NCBI GenBank assembly: GCA_024742415.1
Contig: JANSYN010000005.1
Location: 124,001 to 188,000, forward strand
DNA: 64,000 nt
From: Gammaproteobacteria bacterium
GTDB lineage: Bacteria > Pseudomonadota > Gammaproteobacteria > Pseudomonadales > Halieaceae
Direction of reading: 5' to 3'
In this document: positions 37,957 through 60,584 of the stretch, in pieces
Position numbering within the stretch: position 1 is the stretch's first letter
Layout of the letters: the number at the start of each line of letters is the position of its first letter
The notes under the pieces: model-generated
The model's input: the letters and a program-made list of their open reading frames with translations, nothing else
What the model was told of the DNA's origin: nothing
Database searches by the model: none
Program-made: the position numbers and the translations under genes

Positions 37957-38853
37957 CTACTTGATGTGTTTCAGAATACCGTCGAGCTCATCCAGCGAGC
38001 TGTACGGCAATACCAGCTTGCCCTTACCATTGGCCCCGTGCTTGATCTCCACACGGGTGCCCAACCTTTGCGACAGGTCGTTCTGTAAATGCCGTATGTT
38101 CGGATCCTCTGATCTGGCCGGCCGGGAAGCGCTGCCACTGCCCTGTTGCAGCTGCCTCACCAGCGCCTCTGTTTGCCGCACCGAAAGGCTCTTGCCTACC
38201 ACAGTGCGCGCCGCTTGTGACTGGCTCATGCCCTCCAGTGACAACAGCGCTCTGGCATGGCCCATTTCCAGGTCGCCGTGCTCGAGAAGGCGACGCACAT
38301 CATCTTGCAGGCTCATAAGCCGCATCAGGTTGGTGACCGTGGAACGCGATTTGCCCACGGCCTGCGCCACCTCCTGCTGAGTGAGCTCAAACTCCTGTTG
38401 TAACCGTTGCAAGGCCATTGCCTCTTCAATGGGGTTTAAGTCTTCACGTTGGATGTTCTCAATAAGCGCCATGGCAATGGCTGCGCTGTCGTCAACATCG
38501 CGCACCACCGCAGGGATGACATCCAACCCGGCCAGTTGCGTCGCTCGCCAGCGACGCTCGCCGGCAATGATTTCGTACCGGGTGTCGGATATCGGTCGAA
38601 CCACAATCGGCTGCATCACTCCCTGGGCCTTGATGCTGTTTGCCAGCTCCTGCAAGGCCTCAGGTTCAATATCGCGGCGCGGCTGGTATTTGCCTCGCTG
38701 TATCAGGTCAACCGGAAGTTCTTTGAGATCACCGTCAGCAGCACCGGAGACGGACGCTTCCGGGACCTGACCGGGGTTGTCAGTGGCACCTTGTGAGTGA
38801 GCACTTAGTAACGCGTTGAGTCCGCGCCCTAAACCTTTTTTCCTGCCAGACAT
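37957..38853 (-). CDS. parB: Chromosome partitioning protein ParB
   Basis: ParB binds parS palindromes and spreads along DNA as a CTP-dependent clamp. The 298-residue protein has the N-terminal basic GRKKGLGRGLNALLS, the CTPase/arginine box GERRWRATQLAGL, the NIQREDLNPIEEA segment, the helix-turn-helix TQQEVAQAVGKSRSTVTNLMRL and a C-terminal dimerisation domain. The ATG at 38853 has GGGAGA upstream. It lies 20 bp after parA. Two perfect parS sites lie in recF, 18-19 kb away. Confidence 0.97.
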   Translation of the reverse strand: MSGRKKGLGRGLNALLSAHSQGATDNPGQVPEASVSGAADGDLKELPVDLIQRGKYQPRRDIEPEALQELANSIKAQGVMQPIVVRPISDTRYEIIAGERRWRATQLAGLDVIPAVVRDVDDSAAIAMALIENIQREDLNPIEEAMALQRLQQEFELTQQEVAQAVGKSRSTVTNLMRLMSLQDDVRRLLEHGDLEMGHARALLSLEGMSQSQAARTVVGKSLSVRQTEALVRQLQQGSGSASRPARSEDPNIRHLQNDLSQRLGTRVEIKHGANGKGKLVLPYSSLDELDGILKHIK

Positions 38854-38873
38854 GGTTTCTCCCACTCCCTTTT

Positions 38874-39686
38874 TCAGGCCGTCGTCACCGGCGCAGGGCC
38901 GCCGGACGGCACTGTACCAGCTTGCTCTGCGCGGCGGATAATTTCACCGGCCAGGGCCATATATGCCTTGGCGCCACGCGAGTACCGATCATAGTACATC
39001 GCCGGCACACCATGACTGGGGGCTTCTGCCAAACGGATGTTGCGTGGGATGACCGTACGGTACACCTTGCCCGCAAAATGCTCATGCAGTTGCGCTGACA
39101 CCTCGGTCGTAAGACTGTTTCGCGGGTCGTACATGGTTCGCAAAATGCCCTCTATCGCAAGCCCGGGATTGGCTGTTTCGGCAACCCCCTGAATCGTCTC
39201 CACCAGGGCCGACAAGCCTTCCAGGGCGAAGTACTCGCACTGCATGGCAATAATGACCGCATCGGCGGCAACCAGCCCGTTGAGCGTCAGCATATTCAGG
39301 GAGGGCGGACAATCGATCAGCATATAATCGTAATTCGGCGCGACTTCTATCAGTGCGCTACGCAGGCGACGCTCACGATTTTCGATATCGAGAAGCTCTA
39401 TCTCGGCTGCGGTCAGGTCGCCATTGGCAGGCAGCACCTGGTAGCCGCTATCCCCCGCGGCACAGGCCACCTGGCTGACCGGCGCCCGGTGCACCAGCAC
39501 ATCATAGATGCTGCGCTGCACACCCCACTTATCGACCCCACTGCCCATCGTGGCGTTGCCCTGGGGGTCGAGGTCCACCAGCAGCACTCGTTGCTGCATG
39601 GCGGCAAGCGAGGCCGCAAGATTGACGCAGGTTGTTGTCTTGCCAACACCGCCTTTTTGATTCGCTATTGCGAGAATCCTGGCCAA
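38874..39686 (-). CDS. parA: Chromosome partitioning ATPase ParA
   Basis: The 270-residue protein is a deviant-Walker ATPase that moves ParB-parS complexes. KGGVGKTT at residues 11-18 carries the signature lysine, and VLLVDLDPQGNATMGSG and YMLIDCPPSLNMLTLNGL follow in order. It is a short chromosomal type without an N-terminal DNA-binding domain. The start is a TTG at 39686 with GGGG upstream. It follows rsmG by 15 bp. Confidence 0.96.
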   Translation of the reverse strand: MARILAIANQKGGVGKTTTCVNLAASLAAMQQRVLLVDLDPQGNATMGSGVDKWGVQRSIYDVLVHRAPVSQVACAAGDSGYQVLPANGDLTAAEIELLDIENRERRLRSALIEVAPNYDYMLIDCPPSLNMLTLNGLVAADAVIIAMQCEYFALEGLSALVETIQGVAETANPGLAIEGILRTMYDPRNSLTTEVSAQLHEHFAGKVYRTVIPRNIRLAEAPSHGVPAMYYDRYSRGAKAYMALAGEIIRRAEQAGTVPSGGPAPVTTA

Positions 39687-43625: not shown

Positions 43626-43655
43626 TTGTCAGCGTCTCGAATAGTGGCGTAGGAT
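43626..43655 (+). promoter_or_regulatory. Candidate promoter of hppA
   Basis: TTGTCA (43626-43631) and TAGGAT (43650-43655) are 18 bases apart, 41 bases before the hppA ATG. The -10 is imperfect, so this is a moderate call. Confidence 0.45.
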
Positions 43656-43695
43656 GGAGTGGCATAACAATAAAATAAACAGCAGGAGTCGTCCC

Positions 43696-45684
43696 ATGAA
43701 AGAGTATTTAGCAATACCTCCCATGCTCGGCGCCGCAGGTTTGGTCGTCGCGTTTATCATTTACCACATCATGACCAAAGCCAGCCCCGGTGAAGGCAAG
43801 ATCACCAAGATTGGTGACCAGATTCACCTCGGTGCAATGGTATTCATGAAACGTGAATACACGATGTTGGCACTGTTCGCGCTGGTGCTTCTCGTTGCAA
43901 TCTTCATTTCACCCCTGGGTACCAAGACTGCCATCGCTTTTCTGGCAGGGGCGCTGTCGTCCGCAACCGCAGGCTTTCTTGGTATGTTCGCCGCCACAAA
44001 AGCCAACGTGCGCACGGCCGTCGCCGCGCATGAAGAGGGGCAGGGCAAAGCTCTTACCATCTCTTTCTACGGCGGATCCATCATGGGCCTGTGTGTTGCA
44101 TCACTGGGTTTAATTGGATTGGGCAGCGTGTATTGGTTGTTTGGCGGAGATCCTGAAACCGCCCATGCCATACACGGTTTCGGTATGGGTGCCTCGGTCG
44201 TTGCCCTTTTCTCGAGAGTGGGCGGCGGCATCTTTACCAAGAGTGCCGATGTGGGCGCCGACCTTGTCGGAAAAATTGAAGCGGGCATTCCCGAGGATGA
44301 TCCACGCAACCCCGGAGTGATCGCAGACAACGTCGGTGATAACGTCGGTGATATCGCAGGTATGGGTTCAGATATTTTTGAATCTTACTGTGGCTCCATG
44401 ATTGCCTGTATCGCTATTGCGTCCACGATGGCGGTAGGTGTGCAGGCGGAAATGATGCTATTGCCACTCGCACTGGCCAGCATTGGCCTTATTGCATCCC
44501 TTATGGGCATTGGTGTTGTGCGCATGCGCTCGGCCGCGGCGCCTGAGGCCGCGCTGCGCACCGGAACGATGCTTGCCCCGGTGGTGTTCGCGTTCATGGC
44601 CTGGTTCTTGATAGCGGGACTGGGCTTGCCGCCCACTATCTGGTGGTCAGTGGTCAGTGGCGCGGTCGGCGGCATTGCAATCGGGTTGATCACGGAATAT
44701 TACACCGGTTCAACACCAGTTCAGAAAATCGCCAAATCGGGTGAAACCGGCCCTGCGACCGTGATGATTACCGGGCTGGCCGTTGGCATGCAGTCTGTTG
44801 TTCTGCCTATCCTGTTCCTGGCGGCCATTATTTTCGTCTCTACTGAACTGTCCGGCCTGTACGGCGTTGGCATCGCGGCGGTGGGTATGTTGGCGACCGT
44901 AGGCATCACAATGGCGATTGATGCCTATGGCCCGGTGGCAGACAACGCGGGCGGTATTGCCGAGATGGCCGGCATGGGTGCAGACACCAGAAAAATCACC
45001 GACGGTCTTGATGAAGTCGGCAACACCACAGCAGCGATCGGCAAGGGGTTTGCCATTGGCGCTGCTGCTTTGGCGGCACTGGCGATTATTGCCGCATTCG
45101 TCGAGACGGTGCAGCTCAACAATGCCGACTTTTCGTTGGAGATGTCTGATCCCACTGTGCTGGTGGGGATGTTTATCGGCGGAACGATTCCGTTTCTCAT
45201 CGCTTCCATCACCATGACCGCCGTTGGCGAGGCTGCCTTTGACATGATCAATGAGATTCGGCGGCAGTTTCGGGAAATACCGGGCCTACTGGAAGGCACC
45301 GCCGAGCCTGACACTGCCAAATGTGTAGACATTGCAACCACGGCCGCGCTGCGCCGCATGATTTTGCCGGGCGCAATCGCTGTTAGCGCGCCGGTAATCG
45401 TTGGTTTTGGTTTGGGCCCCTCATCCCTGGGTGGCATGTTGGGCGGTGCGCTCCTTGGTTGTGTACTTATGGCACTAATGATGGCTAACGCCGGTGGGGC
45501 CTGGGACAACGCCAAGAAATATGTGGAGAAAGGAAACCTCGGTGGGAAAGGCTCTGACACGCACGCTGCGGTTGTGGTTGGCGACACCGTCGGTGATCCG
45601 TTCAAGGATACCTCCGGACCTTCCATGAACATCCTGATCAACGTCATGGCTATTGTCAGCCTGGTCATCGCCCCGCTGTTATAA
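43696..45684 (+). CDS. hppA: Membrane-bound ion-pumping pyrophosphatase
   Basis: This protein hydrolyses pyrophosphate and pumps ions out of the cytoplasm. The 662-residue sequence has about 16 hydrophobic helices, the substrate motif [13 protein letters not shown] with [20 protein letters not shown], and the C-terminal [15 protein letters not shown] that binds Mg-pyrophosphate. The stretch [10 protein letters not shown] places alanine (A446) and glycine (G449) where K+-dependent enzymes have them. K+-independent ones have lysine and threonine. So it is probably K+-stimulated. Whether H+ or Na+ is pumped cannot be told. The ATG at 43696 has AGGAG seven bases upstream. Confidence 0.95.
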
Positions 45685-53355: not shown

Positions 53356-53490
53356 TCAGGCAGACAGAACCTTGCGGCCTTTCGCCCTGCGGCGATTCAA
53401 AACGTGGCGACCGCCTTTGGTTGCCATGCGTGCGCGAAAGCCATGAGTACGTTTGCGTTTGATAACACTGGGCTGAAATGTTCTCTTCAT
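53356..53490 (-). CDS. rpmH: 50S ribosomal protein L34
   Basis: The 44-residue very basic protein starts [20 protein letters not shown] and ends GRKVLSA, which is unmistakable L34. The ATG is at 53490 and the TGA at 53356-53358. It heads the rpmH-rnpA-yidD-yidC-mnmE operon, directly next to the probable oriC. Confidence 0.98.
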
Positions 53491-53567
53491 TGGTTTATTT
53501 CCGGCTGTTCAGGCGGTTGGGTCACGAAGGCTGTTCGTGAGCGAGCGCCTGTGAAAAAAGGTGGGGT

Positions 53568-53596
53568 ATTCTATGTAAATGTATCTCGCAGTTCAA
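53568..53596 (-). promoter_or_regulatory. Promoter of the rpmH operon
   Basis: On the minus strand TTGAAC (53591-53596) and TAGAAT (53568-53573) are separated by exactly 17 bases, giving a leader of about 70 bases before rpmH. Both hexamers are good. Confidence 0.7.
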
Positions 53597-53699
53597 TCGG
53601 CATGGCCATTATTTACTGCCATCCGTTGGTGCCAACAGCCCTGTCGGCATGGCGCCAGGCCGTGCGAAGTGTGGTGATTTCTGCCGGCACTGAGCCGGG

Positions 53700-54016
53700 A
53701 AAAAATCCTAATAAACACTAGGCCTTAGGGGCTTAGCACACACCTTTACCATAAGATATAAACAACTTATACACAGGATAAGCTACACACAGAAAAATTC
53801 TCAGATGGCGATCAAAAAGTGTACGAAAAACACCTAAGCTTCTGAATTAAAAGGATTATAAAAATAGGCATTTTTTGCGCCGGACTGTGGATAAGTGACT
53901 CATTGGGGAGTATCATCTTGTTCGTGGCCAGTCGTAGCAGCCACCAGATAGAACTTTTATATCATATACCGCGTTTATGTAGCCTGTATCTATTATCCGG
54001 CTTCAAGGGGATCATT
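53700..54016. other. Probable chromosomal replication origin (oriC)
   Basis: The 526-bp gap between rpmH and dnaA holds no credible gene. It contains two strict DnaA boxes: TTATACACA (53767-53775) and TGTGGATAA (53886-53894, TTATCCACA on the minus strand). Between them lies an A/T-rich stretch (53838-53876) that could be the unwinding element. A GATC lies at 53810-53813. The position between rpmH and dnaA is where the Pseudomonas origin lies, and gene direction diverges here. The last part (53895-54016) must carry the dnaA promoter, which I cannot place with confidence. Confidence 0.75.
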
Positions 54017-55495
54017 TTGCCTGAATTTGCTTTACCCGAAAAAGTCTGGAAGCACTGCGTTGACAGGCTACGCGATGAGCTTCCTTCCCAGCAGTTTAAT
54101 ACCTGGATTCGTCCACTGCAGGTGCAAGAAGGCAACGAAGCCTTAAGACTGGCCGCTCCTAACCGCTTCATAAAAGACTTCGTTTGCGAAAAGTACGCTG
54201 AGCGCATCGTACAACTCATTCGTGAAGCAGAGCCGGGTGCCAATGCAGACTTCGTGCTCGAGGTTGGCGCCTCCAGCGATGCCTCCGCGGTCTCGCAGAC
54301 GGCACCAGACAACCCACCGGTCCCAGCCAACGGGGCGCGCGAGCCTTCGCCATCAAGTATCGCTGCGTCGCACAGCCCCGCCCTTTCAGGAGACGCGGTT
54401 TCGCGTTCTGCACCGTTGGTTGGCTCGGCGATCAGTACCCGGCGCAGAAGCGCTGACACATCTTCGCTGCATCACGACCACCCGCTGGTTGGAAACTACA
54501 CCTTCAACAGTTTCGTAGAGGGCAAGTCTAACCAGCTGGCGCTTGCAGCGGCGCAACAGGTAGCTGAAAACCCCGGCGACGCCTACAACCCGCTGTTCCT
54601 GTATGGTGGCGTGGGACTGGGTAAAACCCATTTGATGCACGCTGTGGGTAATGCCCTGAAAACCCAGAATCCGGGGGCGAAGATTGTTTACCTGCACTCG
54701 GAGCGCTTTGTTGCAGATATGGTCAAGGCGCTGCAGCTCAATGCCATCAGTGATTTCAAGCGCTTTTACCGCTCGGTGGATGCACTGCTGATTGACGACA
54801 TACAGTTCTTTGCCAAAAAAGAGCGCTCCCAGGAAGAGTTTTTTCATACCTTTAATGCGCTGCTGGAAGGCCGGCAGCAGATGATCCTTACCTGCGACCG
54901 CTATCCAAAAGAGATCGACGGGCTCGAGGAGCGCTTGAAATCGCGCTTCGGTTGGGGGTTGACGGTCTCTGTTGAACCGCCCGAGCTCGAGACGCGAGTA
55001 GCGATATTGATGAAGAAGGCAACCGAGGCGAGAGTTGACCTGCCACCCGACGCTGCTTTTTTCATCGCTCAGCGTATTCGTTCTAATGTACGGGAGCTTG
55101 AAGGCGCATTGAAAAGAGTGATAGCAAGTGCCCACTTCGTGGGGAAGCCGATTGATATCGAGCTCATCAAGGAGAGCCTCAAGGACCTTCTGGCGCTGCA
55201 GGACAAACAGGTGAGTATGGATAATATCCAGCGCATCGCCGCGGAGTACTACAAAATTAAAGTCTCGGATATGATGTCTCGGCGCCGCAGTCGCTCTGTC
55301 GCCAGGCCTCGACAAATGGCAATGGCACTATCGAAAGAGCTCACCAACCACAGCCTGCCTGAAATCGGAGAGAGCTTTGGTGGTCGAGACCACACGACAG
55401 TCTTGCACGCATGCCGTAAAATCAAGGAACTTCGGGAAACTAACTCGGATATTCGCGAAGATTACAAAAACTTGCTACGTTCTCTTACAACGTAA
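54017..55495 (+). CDS. dnaA: Chromosomal replication initiator DnaA
   Basis: DnaA opens oriC and loads the helicase. The 492-residue protein has domain I ([24 protein letters not shown]), a Pro/Ser-rich linker (about 90-155), an AAA+ domain with Walker A GGVGLGKT at 197-204 and LLIDDIQFF, and the C-terminal DNA-binding domain with [15 protein letters not shown]. The frame is open from 53903, but homology begins at 54017. There a TTG start follows AAGGGG by six bases, so translation probably begins at TTG. Confidence 0.97.
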
Positions 55496-55581: not shown

Positions 55582-56691
55582 ATGAAGTTTAGCGTCTCGC
55601 GGGATACTTTATTGAAATCCCTGAACCTGGTAGCGGGGGTCGTTGAGCGTCGCCAGACCCTCCCGATTCTCGCCAACGTGCTTATGGTGCTTGAAGATGG
55701 TCGTTTGTCGCTGACCGGTACAGATCTTGAGGTAGAGCTGGTGGGCCGGGTTCAGCTGCCCGCTGCCGGTGACACCGGAGAGGTCACAGTCCCCGCGCGC
55801 AAGTTGGCTGACATCTGTAAATCTTTGCCAGAAGGCAGTGAAATCAGCTTTAGCGTTGCGGATGGCAAGGTGACCGTTAAGTCAGGTCGCAGTCGCTTTA
55901 CCCTGTCTACCCTGCCTGCCAGGGAATTCCCCAATGTAGAAGACAGCATGGGCACGCATCAACTCACCTTGAAGCAGGGACAGCTCAAGCGGCTGATAGA
56001 GCGCACCGGCTTTGCCATGGCGCAGCAGGACGTTCGCTATTACCTCAACGGGATGCTCTGGGAGCTGCAGTCCGGCCAACTACGCGTGGTAGCGACAGAT
56101 GGCCACCGCCTGGCAATGTGCACCCTGCCCGAAAAAGTAGACGTTAAAGGTGACGGTGACATCCAGGTGATTCTTCCGCGCAAGGGCGTGTTAGAGCTCG
56201 CCAGGCTGCTTATGGACGATGATGCGGATATCGCGATCGTCATTGGCAGTAATCATATTCGCGCAGTAACGGATGAGTTCACATTCACCTCCAAGCTGGT
56301 GGATGGCAAATTCCCGGATTATCAACGCGTGCTCCCCCGCTCACCGGACAAAATCCTGGTGGGCTCTCGCCTGGAGTTGCGGCAAGCCTTCACCCGCACG
56401 GCGATTTTGTCGAATGAGAAGTATCGCGGCGTGCGTCTGAAGATGACAGGGGATGCGCTGGATATTCTGGCAAACAACCCCGAACAGGAAGAAGCCGAAG
56501 AAACAGTACCGGTCACGTATTCTGGTGACGCTCTGGAGATGGGGTTTAACGTGTCTTACCTGCTGGACGTGCTGGGCGTTCTCAGTGGCGACCAGGTGAA
56601 GATGTCTTTGGCTGACCCTAACAGTAGTGCATTGCTGGAGGAGTCAGAAGAAGGCGACTCACTCTATGTCGTGATGCCCATGCGCCTTTGA
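55582..56691 (+). CDS. dnaN: DNA polymerase III beta sliding clamp
   Basis: The ring-shaped processivity factor of the replicase. The 369-residue protein has three similar clamp domains, starting MKFSVSRDTLLKSLNLVAGVVERR and ending DSLYVVMPMRL, with YYLNGMLWE and ATDGHRLAM in order. The hydrophobic pocket that binds polymerase and other partners lies near the C-terminus. It is 86 bp after dnaA, with a leader hairpin over its ribosome-binding site. Confidence 0.98.
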   Translation: MKFSVSRDTLLKSLNLVAGVVERRQTLPILANVLMVLEDGRLSLTGTDLEVELVGRVQLPAAGDTGEVTVPARKLADICKSLPEGSEISFSVADGKVTVKSGRSRFTLSTLPAREFPNVEDSMGTHQLTLKQGQLKRLIERTGFAMAQQDVRYYLNGMLWELQSGQLRVVATDGHRLAMCTLPEKVDVKGDGDIQVILPRKGVLELARLLMDDDADIAIVIGSNHIRAVTDEFTFTSKLVDGKFPDYQRVLPRSPDKILVGSRLELRQAFTRTAILSNEKYRGVRLKMTGDALDILANNPEQEEAEETVPVTYSGDALEMGFNVSYLLDVLGVLSGDQVKMSLADPNSSALLEESEEGDSLYVVMPMRL

Positions 56692-56791: not shown

Positions 56792-57898
56792 GTGGCCCTG
56801 CAAGCACTCCATATCGAGCATATTCGCAACCTGAAGGCTGTCCGCCTGGAGGGGCTGTCCCGTGTGAATGTGTTTTACGGGGAGAATGGCAGTGGTAAAA
56901 CGAGTGTTCTGGAGTCGATCCACCTTCTTGGAATGGCGCGCTCCTTTCGCGGAAGCAGTATCAAGACGCTTATCACGCATGAGGAGGCGCACTGTACCGT
57001 TTTTGGCGCCAGCTCAAGACCGGGAGCAGAAGGTTTGACGCCCCTCGGGGTACAGCGAACACGGCAAGGCGAGGCACTGATAAAAATTGGCGGCCAGGTT
57101 GTCAGAACCGTAGCGGAATTGGCAGAGCACCTCCCGTTGCAGGTTATCACCGCAGACAGCTTCAGCTTGCTCACTGGGCCTCCGGGTGCCCGGCGGCGCT
57201 TTCTGGACTGGGGTGTGTTCCACGTGGAACATGAGTTTTTTGGCCAGTGGCAGAGGTTTCAGCGTTGTATAAAACAGCGCAACATGTTGTTGCGCCGTGG
57301 TAATATAGACCCGAGAGAACTGGAGGTCTGGACGAGGGATTTGGCCACGTTTGGTGAGGCAATAAACGGTTTCAGAGCCACCTATTTTGACGCCTTATCT
57401 GAACGGTTTGCCACCACGATCAAGCAGCTAGCGCCTTCGTTGGCTGGCCTTGATCTGCGGTTCAGGCGAGGCTGGGACGCGGAGCAGTCCTATGCCGAGG
57501 CCCTGCACCAGGGTCAATCGGCAGATGTGGAGCAGGGGTATACGCATGCCGGCCCGCAGCGTGCAGATATCAGGGTAATGACAGGCAAACACCTGGCGGC
57601 TGAGACGCTATCCAGGGGGCAGCAGAAGTTGGTCATATGTGCGCTCAAACTGGCCCAGGGTCAATTGATGTCGGATGCCGGCCGGGCAGAGTGTATGTAT
57701 CTGATCGACGACTTGCCCGCAGAGCTGGATGAGAATCATAGCAGGCTGGTCTGTGAGTTACTGGCGAGTATGGATGCGCAGGTTTTTATCACCTGTGTAG
57801 AGCCGCAAGAGATTCGAGCCGTCTGGCCGCAGCATAAGGAATTGGCCGTGTTCCACGTGGAACACGGCGCTGTAAAACTGGCACTTGCCGAGGAGTGA
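56792..57898 (+). CDS. recF: DNA replication and repair protein RecF
   Basis: RecF helps load RecA at gaps. The 368-residue SMC-like ATPase has Walker A GENGSGKT at residues 30-37, the PPGARRRFLDWGVFH segment near 129-144, the signature TLSRGQQKLV and Walker B MYLIDDLPAELD. It starts with GTG at 56792. Unusually, it contains two copies of the hexapeptide VFHVEH (residues 142-147 and 353-358), each encoded by a perfect parS palindrome. Confidence 0.95.
   Translation: MALQALHIEHIRNLKAVRLEGLSRVNVFYGENGSGKTSVLESIHLLGMARSFRGSSIKTLITHEEAHCTVFGASSRPGAEGLTPLGVQRTRQGEALIKIGGQVVRTVAELAEHLPLQVITADSFSLLTGPPGARRRFLDWGVFHVEHEFFGQWQRFQRCIKQRNMLLRRGNIDPRELEVWTRDLATFGEAINGFRATYFDALSERFATTIKQLAPSLAGLDLRFRRGWDAEQSYAEALHQGQSADVEQGYTHAGPQRADIRVMTGKHLAAETLSRGQQKLVICALKLAQGQLMSDAGRAECMYLIDDLPAELDENHSRLVCELLASMDAQVFITCVEPQEIRAVWPQHKELAVFHVEHGAVKLALAEE
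57216..57231. other. parS: parS site 1, inside recF
   Basis: TGTTCCACGTGGAACA is a perfect 16-bp palindrome identical to the parS consensus of Pseudomonas-type chromosomes, the binding site of ParB. It lies in frame within recF and encodes part of VFHVEH (residues 142-147). It is about 3.4 kb from the probable oriC. Confidence 0.92.
57849..57864. other. parS: parS site 2, near the end of recF
   Basis: A second perfect TGTTCCACGTGGAACA. Four further flanking bases on each side also pair, giving a 24-bp palindrome (57845-57868). It encodes VFHVEH again (residues 353-358) and ends 34 bases before the recF stop. The two sites are 633 bp apart. Confidence 0.92.
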
Positions 57899-57986: not shown

Positions 57987-58016
57987 CCAAGACCAAGACC
58001 AAGACCAAGACCAAGA
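57987..58016 (+). repeat. CCAAGA hexamer tandem repeat
   Basis: Five perfect copies of CCAAGA lie in the recF-gyrB gap, 148 bases before the gyrB start. Such short repeats can change length by slippage. Confidence 0.9.

Positions 58017-58115: not shown

Positions 58116-60584
<2,469 letters not shown>

Follow-up and report, generated by a model that had tools for sequence, protein, structure and literature searches.

Predicted parS centromere sites within recF: an arrangement held by the DNA and common in Gammaproteobacteria

The recF gene in the stretch of gammaproteobacterial chromosome analysed here (64 kb, hereafter the window) carries two copies of a 16-bp palindrome that are, very probably, the chromosome's parS centromere sites, lying within the recF codons in an arrangement that is held by the DNA and common in Gammaproteobacteria. 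We infer from the sequence that these sites are bound by ParB and serve segregation in the window organism; the proposal of a first-pass annotation, made from the letters of the window, that they form the likely ParB loading centre gains support from their sequence, position, partner genes, genome-wide uniqueness and conservation. In ParABS systems, ParB dimers load on parS with CTP and spread, and segregation of the origin region follows from transport of the complex by ParA. Here, ParB clamps would load at the two recF sites and then spread over recF and its neighbours, after which ParA would move the origin region.

Two palindromes in the recF reading frame

A 16-mer scan of the window found TGTTCCACGTGGAACA in two exact copies, at 57216–57231 (site 1) and 57849–57864 (site 2), with a spacing of 633 bp, both matching TGTTNCACGTGNAACA, the palindrome of chromosomal parS. 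Their host gene, recF (56792–57898, + strand), scores 346 bits against the NCBIfam RecF equivalog model TIGR00611 (cut-off 172), and its reading frame contains both copies, each in frame and each encoding VFHVEH: site 1 runs from the end of V142 to the start of H147 (hexapeptide at residues 142–147), and site 2 from the end of V353 to the start of H358 (residues 353–358). Spacing, frame and peptides were thereby confirmed as first annotated, and so was the placement of the second copy inside a 24-bp palindrome, GCCGTGTTCCACGTGGAACACGGC (57845–57868), which is perfect and has site 2 at its centre. At the window's base composition, ~0.0008 exact copies would be expected by chance in 4.14 Mb, and, given the VFHVEH peptides, the chance of exact parS codons under the window's codon usage is ~0.022 per site. 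Both sites are assigned as parS from the exact 16-mer and its class-wide conservation as DNA, described below, and both lie within the recF frame, as recF-embedded parS does in Pseudomonas aeruginosa. Separately, a short tandem repeat of ACCAAG-type hexamers was seen by eye in the recF–gyrB spacer, at ~57990–58016.

The first-pass claim that the 64 kb hold no other perfect copy extends to ≤3 mismatches, at which the window has no third match to TGTTCCACGTGGAACA. The whole-genome search that the same annotation had proposed returned only the two recF sites within 2 mismatches across 4.14 Mb, with no further match in the rest of the genome (G000; 4,142,327 bases in 27 contigs, 99.65% complete). 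Since nothing else parS-like was found genome-wide at ≤2 mismatches, the window locus adds a comparatively pure case to those showing the arrangement.

We consider it improbable that the two sites, though real parS, are remnants or accessories and that ParB loads mainly elsewhere, for example at diverged sites or half-sites. P. aeruginosa ParB is reported at many half-parS sites (excerpt of the review PMC7022226), some relatives have parS away from recF, and a genome in 27 contigs could hold a site in a gap. These points are outweighed by the two perfect copies, by the lack of any other match at ≤2 mismatches in so complete a genome, by the report that one parS of the oriC-near cluster is both necessary and sufficient in P. 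aeruginosa (excerpt of PMC4368675), and by the near relatives. Among named relatives, RecF is most similar in a Halieaceae MAG (67% identity) and in Pseudohalioglobus lutimaris (L213; 64%), and four of five near relatives compared (L212, L213, L214 and L249) keep both sites perfect, the fifth (L271) having one mismatch in site 2.

Genomic neighbourhood and partner genes

The genes around the sites follow the order dnaA (54071–55495, + strand; TIGR00362; start chosen within the longer ORF 53903–55495), dnaN (55582–56691, + strand; TIGR00663), recF and gyrB (58161–60584, + strand; TIGR01059, NF011501), with mnmG-rsmG-parA-parB 15–19 kb off. A cognate ParB and ParA, as a chromosomal parS calls for, appear to be encoded there. 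The parB gene (37957–38865, − strand), the presumed reader of the sites, scores 210 bits against TIGR00180 (cut-off 58) and, like the ParABS systems of other bacteria, has solved homologues (phmmer to the solved ParB 6t1f, E 2.2e-58). Adjoining it is a parA-like ATPase gene (38874–39686, − strand), whose best matches are ParA/RepA/MinD-type models, none of them over its curated cut-off. The first-pass placement of parA and parB 18 kb away therefore stands, the neighbour of parB being best called parA-like.

Chromosomal parS sites are also origin-proximal, and site 1 lies ~3.3 kb from the presumed oriC, in agreement with the 3–4 kb first annotated. The putative oriC region (53400–54070) is upstream of dnaA and contains three DnaA-box-like 9-mers, at 53550, 53767 and 53886, as would suit an origin immediately before that gene; since the window as a whole has no excess of such 9-mers (6 against an expected 3.8, with as many in 20 of 100 shuffles), the placement rests on gene order. 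An Rfam scan of the window gave nothing at gathering scores. A tRNA-Arg called by ARAGORN at 44637–44728 is probably false, as it has no Rfam match and sits inside an ORF (43654–45684) that presumably encodes a protein resembling membrane pyrophosphatase.

Codons frozen to the parS consensus

For the class, we sampled 274 gammaproteobacterial genomes and took recF from 140 among the best RecF matches listed, so that weak RecFs are under-sampled; codons were ranked over 141 RecFs (these 140 plus the window), and next codons and peptides were counted over 179 (38 more added). Among the 141, 67 had an exact site 1 and 49 a site 1 with one mismatch, the corresponding counts for site 2 being 85 and 26, and the spacing was 612–633 bp when both were exact. 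At least one exact TGTTNCACGTGNAACA site was present in 110 of these genomes, all sites falling within recF in 87 of the 110, and 152 of 185 exact sites overall were inside recF. Across the full 274, 94 genomes were without any exact TGTTNCACGTGNAACA, part of them with one-mismatch forms.

Codon freezing was scored per position against each gene's own codon usage at 163 testable RecF positions. The seven most frozen, V145, V356, H144, H355, V142, E146 and E357 (z 9.2–16), are all covered by parS, and the highest z outside parS-covered positions is 5.9. The preferred codons are GTG for valine (115/118 at V145, 117/124 at V356, 68/72 at V142), CAC for histidine (122/127 at H144, 117/121 at H355) and GAA for glutamate (105/107 at E146, 96/99 at E357). 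At F143 and F354, parS puts no demand on the third base, which is split about evenly between C and T, and the third base of H358, which lies outside parS, is not frozen to the degree of the parS-covered positions either. After CAC-GTG, at 259 sites in 179 RecFs, the next codon was GAA 213 times, AAA 46 times and GAG or AAG never: a charge reversal between glutamate and lysine is accepted where parS allows it, whereas a silent third-base change that parS forbids is not. This freezing, with the retention of parS after recF loss, is the DNA-level conservation in ParB-bearing relatives that marks a chromosomal parS.

Where a RecF has the peptide FHV[EK], it is encoded CAC-GTG-RAA in 127 of 130 cases at site 1 and 132 of 140 at site 2. 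The RecF alignment that the first-pass annotation had suggested thus finds the peptide only where parS is, with few exceptions. The case that it had named as refuting, RecF homologues keeping the peptide with other codons, does exist, yet is rare: 3/130 at site 1, 8/140 at site 2 and, as FHVE at site 1 written with GTC or GTT, 5 of 80 named genomes (four Pseudomonas and one Photobacterium). These 80 loci had been gathered by peptide patterns including DWG[VL]FHVE, so that their site 1 is no test of peptide conservation, and they were used for codons and site 2. In Pseudomonas spp. L225–L228, site 1 is broken by silent changes while the FHVEP peptide stays and site 2 is intact, apparently a recent loss of one centromere site.

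Residues of RecF and residues of the centromere

From the protein's perspective, the hexapeptides could be conserved for RecF function, with matching DNA following from codon bias, an explanation to which we give slightly less credence than to ParB loading elsewhere. In its favour, F143 is present in 159/159 and H144 in 142/159 of the RecFs not counted as ParB-less, each is kept in 15/16 ParB-less RecFs, and FHVE at site 1 outlasts the broken DNA site in the four Pseudomonas and one Photobacterium just mentioned. Against it, the letters that are frozen relative to each gene's own codon usage, at third positions as well, spell the parS consensus; lysine is accepted in place of glutamate, but GAG in place of GAA is not (0/259); parS is kept in the spacer in 18/23 cases without recF; and the same peptide takes two different secondary structures in an AlphaFold model of the window RecF (pLDDT 92.9). 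In that model the site-1 hexapeptide ends a helix (131–145) and the site-2 copy lies in a strand (352–357), which argues that VFHVEH is not a shared protein module.

The par genes are reported to be absent from Enterobacteriaceae and Pasteurellaceae, and our ParB-less set (n = 16) comprised 15 RecFs from the order of genome G252, with no ParB match or one of E 2e-19 or worse, plus that of Escherichia coli K-12 (L163). At site 1, V145 occurs in none of the 16, and at site 2, F354 is present in all and H355 in two. No exact parS was found at either recF site in this set, two members differing from it by a single base of the CAC core at site 2. In the same order, 13 ParB-bearing genomes have site 2 at ≤1 mismatch in 12 and an exact site 1 in 5.

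The first-pass suggestion that selection at residues 142–147 and 353–358 may reflect parS holds, as far as the alignments indicate, for V145–H147 and H355–H358, which would largely reflect the centromere. It fails for F143 and mostly for H144, two of the six site-1 residues that we read as RecF's own because they are conserved without parS too. Returning to the reading of the palindromes as parS, ParB recognition would select the DNA letters and thereby fix V145, E/K146 and H/Q147 at site 1, and V/M/L353, H355, V356, E/K357 and H/Q358 at site 2, with RecF's own need at site 1 seeming to be only W-G-x-F-[H/Y].

Genomes without ParB or with parS elsewhere

Exact parS is present in 176 of the 260 class genomes with a ParB match and in 4 of the 14 without (G038, G130, G131 and G215, drafts 77–95% complete), lying within recF in G131 and G215. 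On a single-gene tree, ParB presence set against parS in recF gave 4 changes and 4 independent pairs, too few for significance in a paired sign test, and a Fisher value for the same comparison carries no correction for relatedness and was given no weight; the association with ParB loss is weak once relatedness counts, because the tree holds few ParB losses (4 changes). Two genomes of family f35 (G032 and G177, 99–100% complete) may have lost the ParABS system altogether: neither has a ParB match, a RecF above the cut-off or an exact parS.

Eight named genomes in which recF has lost both sites (four Marinomonas, a Marinobacterium, a Salinicola, an Oceanospirillaceae MAG and Photobacterium iliopiscarium) were searched, and ParB was present in all eight and exact parS elsewhere in six, the genome search of two Marinomonas giving no exact parS. 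The relocated parS places that were fetched had no dnaN, recF or gyrB alongside. Of the eight, only P. iliopiscarium still has FHVE at site 1, and parS relocation would appear to free RecF residues much as ParB loss does.

The dnaN–gyrB gap after recF loss

We picked 49 class genomes for a weak or missing RecF match and examined the gyrB side or the parS place in 34 (8 + 17 + 9), the first eight and ten of twenty in the second batch having been chosen for having parS. At least three of the 34 hold recF or part of it (G109, G118 and G199), eight others show no dnaN–gyrB adjacency in the stretch fetched, and in 23 dnaN adjoins gyrB with no recF between. The gap contains parS at ≤1 mismatch in 18 of these 23 (exact in 12) and measures ~73–290 bp in the keepers, or 882 bp in L147; the centromere thus mostly stays when recF leaves. 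The gap of L178 has parS-like sites two mismatches off, and four recF-lacking genomes (families f110 and f111) have no parS in the gap, that of f110 sitting in the mnmG-rsmG-parA-parB region. Eight genomes that had been picked without exact parS and have dnaN adjacent to gyrB and no recF divide into five with a site at ≤1 mismatch, one at ≤2 and two with none. Among the 18 keepers, one gave no match to ParB (G217; L336, 1 mismatch). Evolutionarily, recF presence changes at least nine times on a dnaN tree of 188 rows (FastTree, one gene; two broken-recF rows left out), in counts that do not distinguish gain from loss. Short matches of RecF to the gaps by tblastn were considered as recF remnants and rejected, the best ones being the translated parS itself.

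Palindromes within an operon message can form hairpins, and the sites could in principle serve another reader, either as an RNA hairpin in the recF message or as targets of a CACGTG-recognising regulator of dnaA-dnaN-recF-gyrB. That sites of this kind can affect transcription follows from P. aeruginosa, where ParB excess represses dnaA-dnaN-recF-gyrB, an effect ascribed to likely ParB binding at parS1/parS2 (excerpt of PMC5521831); this is nevertheless the least credible of the explanations weighed here, since variants of the free base pair, such as TGTTCCACGTGAAACA in L095, would disrupt an RNA stem, parS persists in intergenic DNA without recF, the exact site occurs in 0/16 ParB-less enteric RecFs, and the letters match the ParB consensus.

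Two recF-lacking loci have unusual structures. In L147 (7001–7738, genome G194), the two parS of the 882-bp gap are part of a 34-bp inverted repeat flanking ~670 bp, a layout that resembles the insertion of an element at the centromere. In gammaproteobacterium G117 (L331:1244–1858, contig C48), there is a satellite-like array in which a 43-bp unit with a parS-like core is repeated ~14 times, including 12 copies of TGTTTCACGTGAAACC at an exact 43-bp period; it ends 67 bp upstream of gyrB, and the preceding gene is not dnaN. No further array of this type was found among 338 loci scanned, and two of its units gave no match in a plasmid collection. The array mirrors the F plasmid centromere, reported as twelve 43-bp repeats (excerpt of PMC6238139).

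Comparison with known ParABS systems

The arrangement itself is not new, because parS1 and parS2 of P. aeruginosa have already been placed within recF (excerpts of PMC5521831 and PMC3909081), and the window shares with that species two origin-proximal parS inside recF and a chromosomal ParB. It differs in number: P. aeruginosa is reported to have ten putative parS, four of them near oriC, and in the window genome the two recF sites are the only ones found. For the intragenic parS of P. aeruginosa, point mutations were chosen that leave the proteins unaltered (both from excerpts of PMC4368675). The 16-bp consensus family is also that of Bacillus subtilis (TGTTNCACGTGAAACA; table in PMC7022226) and Caulobacter; in Caulobacter, a hot spot for inserted parS covers recF and gyrB, the native cluster lying elsewhere (excerpt of PMC5815017). 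Xanthomonas citri likewise has a parS of this type in this gene cluster, at a distance of 3 kb from the origin, but at the 3' end of dnaN rather than in recF, and with G as its last base (excerpt of PMC3937727).

Outside the class, parS lies at or beside mnmE, mnmG, rsmG or parA in 7/7 non-gamma Pseudomonadota loci examined (7 of 12 genomes with a parS match), and none of the seven has it in recF, which suggests, for a small and pattern-selected set, that the recF location is a gammaproteobacterial novelty. Our literature search found the P. aeruginosa statements and no class-wide analysis, the excerpts of the papers found placing native parS in recF only for P. aeruginosa; the parS survey of Livny et al. 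2007 was outside its scope, and an earlier notice for other species is possible. As far as these searches show, what is new is how general and how DNA-constrained the recF-embedded parS is in Gammaproteobacteria.

Evolution and significance

We think it likely, on balance, that the centromere within recF originated close to the root of Gammaproteobacteria, where it took over from sites near mnmG and parAB, and that it has since dictated several RecF residues. On the same account, it mostly outlives recF between dnaN and gyrB, the residues drift after ParB is lost or parS moves, and in one recF-less lineage it became an F-plasmid-like array of ~14 43-bp units. The locus would be a natural case of one DNA stretch with two masters, a protein and a centromere, for which both single-loss controls exist (ParB lost, recF lost). 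FHVEH-type signatures in RecF alignments would then partly reflect the centromere and not repair function, and recF deletion or codon optimisation in these bacteria may also remove centromere sites.
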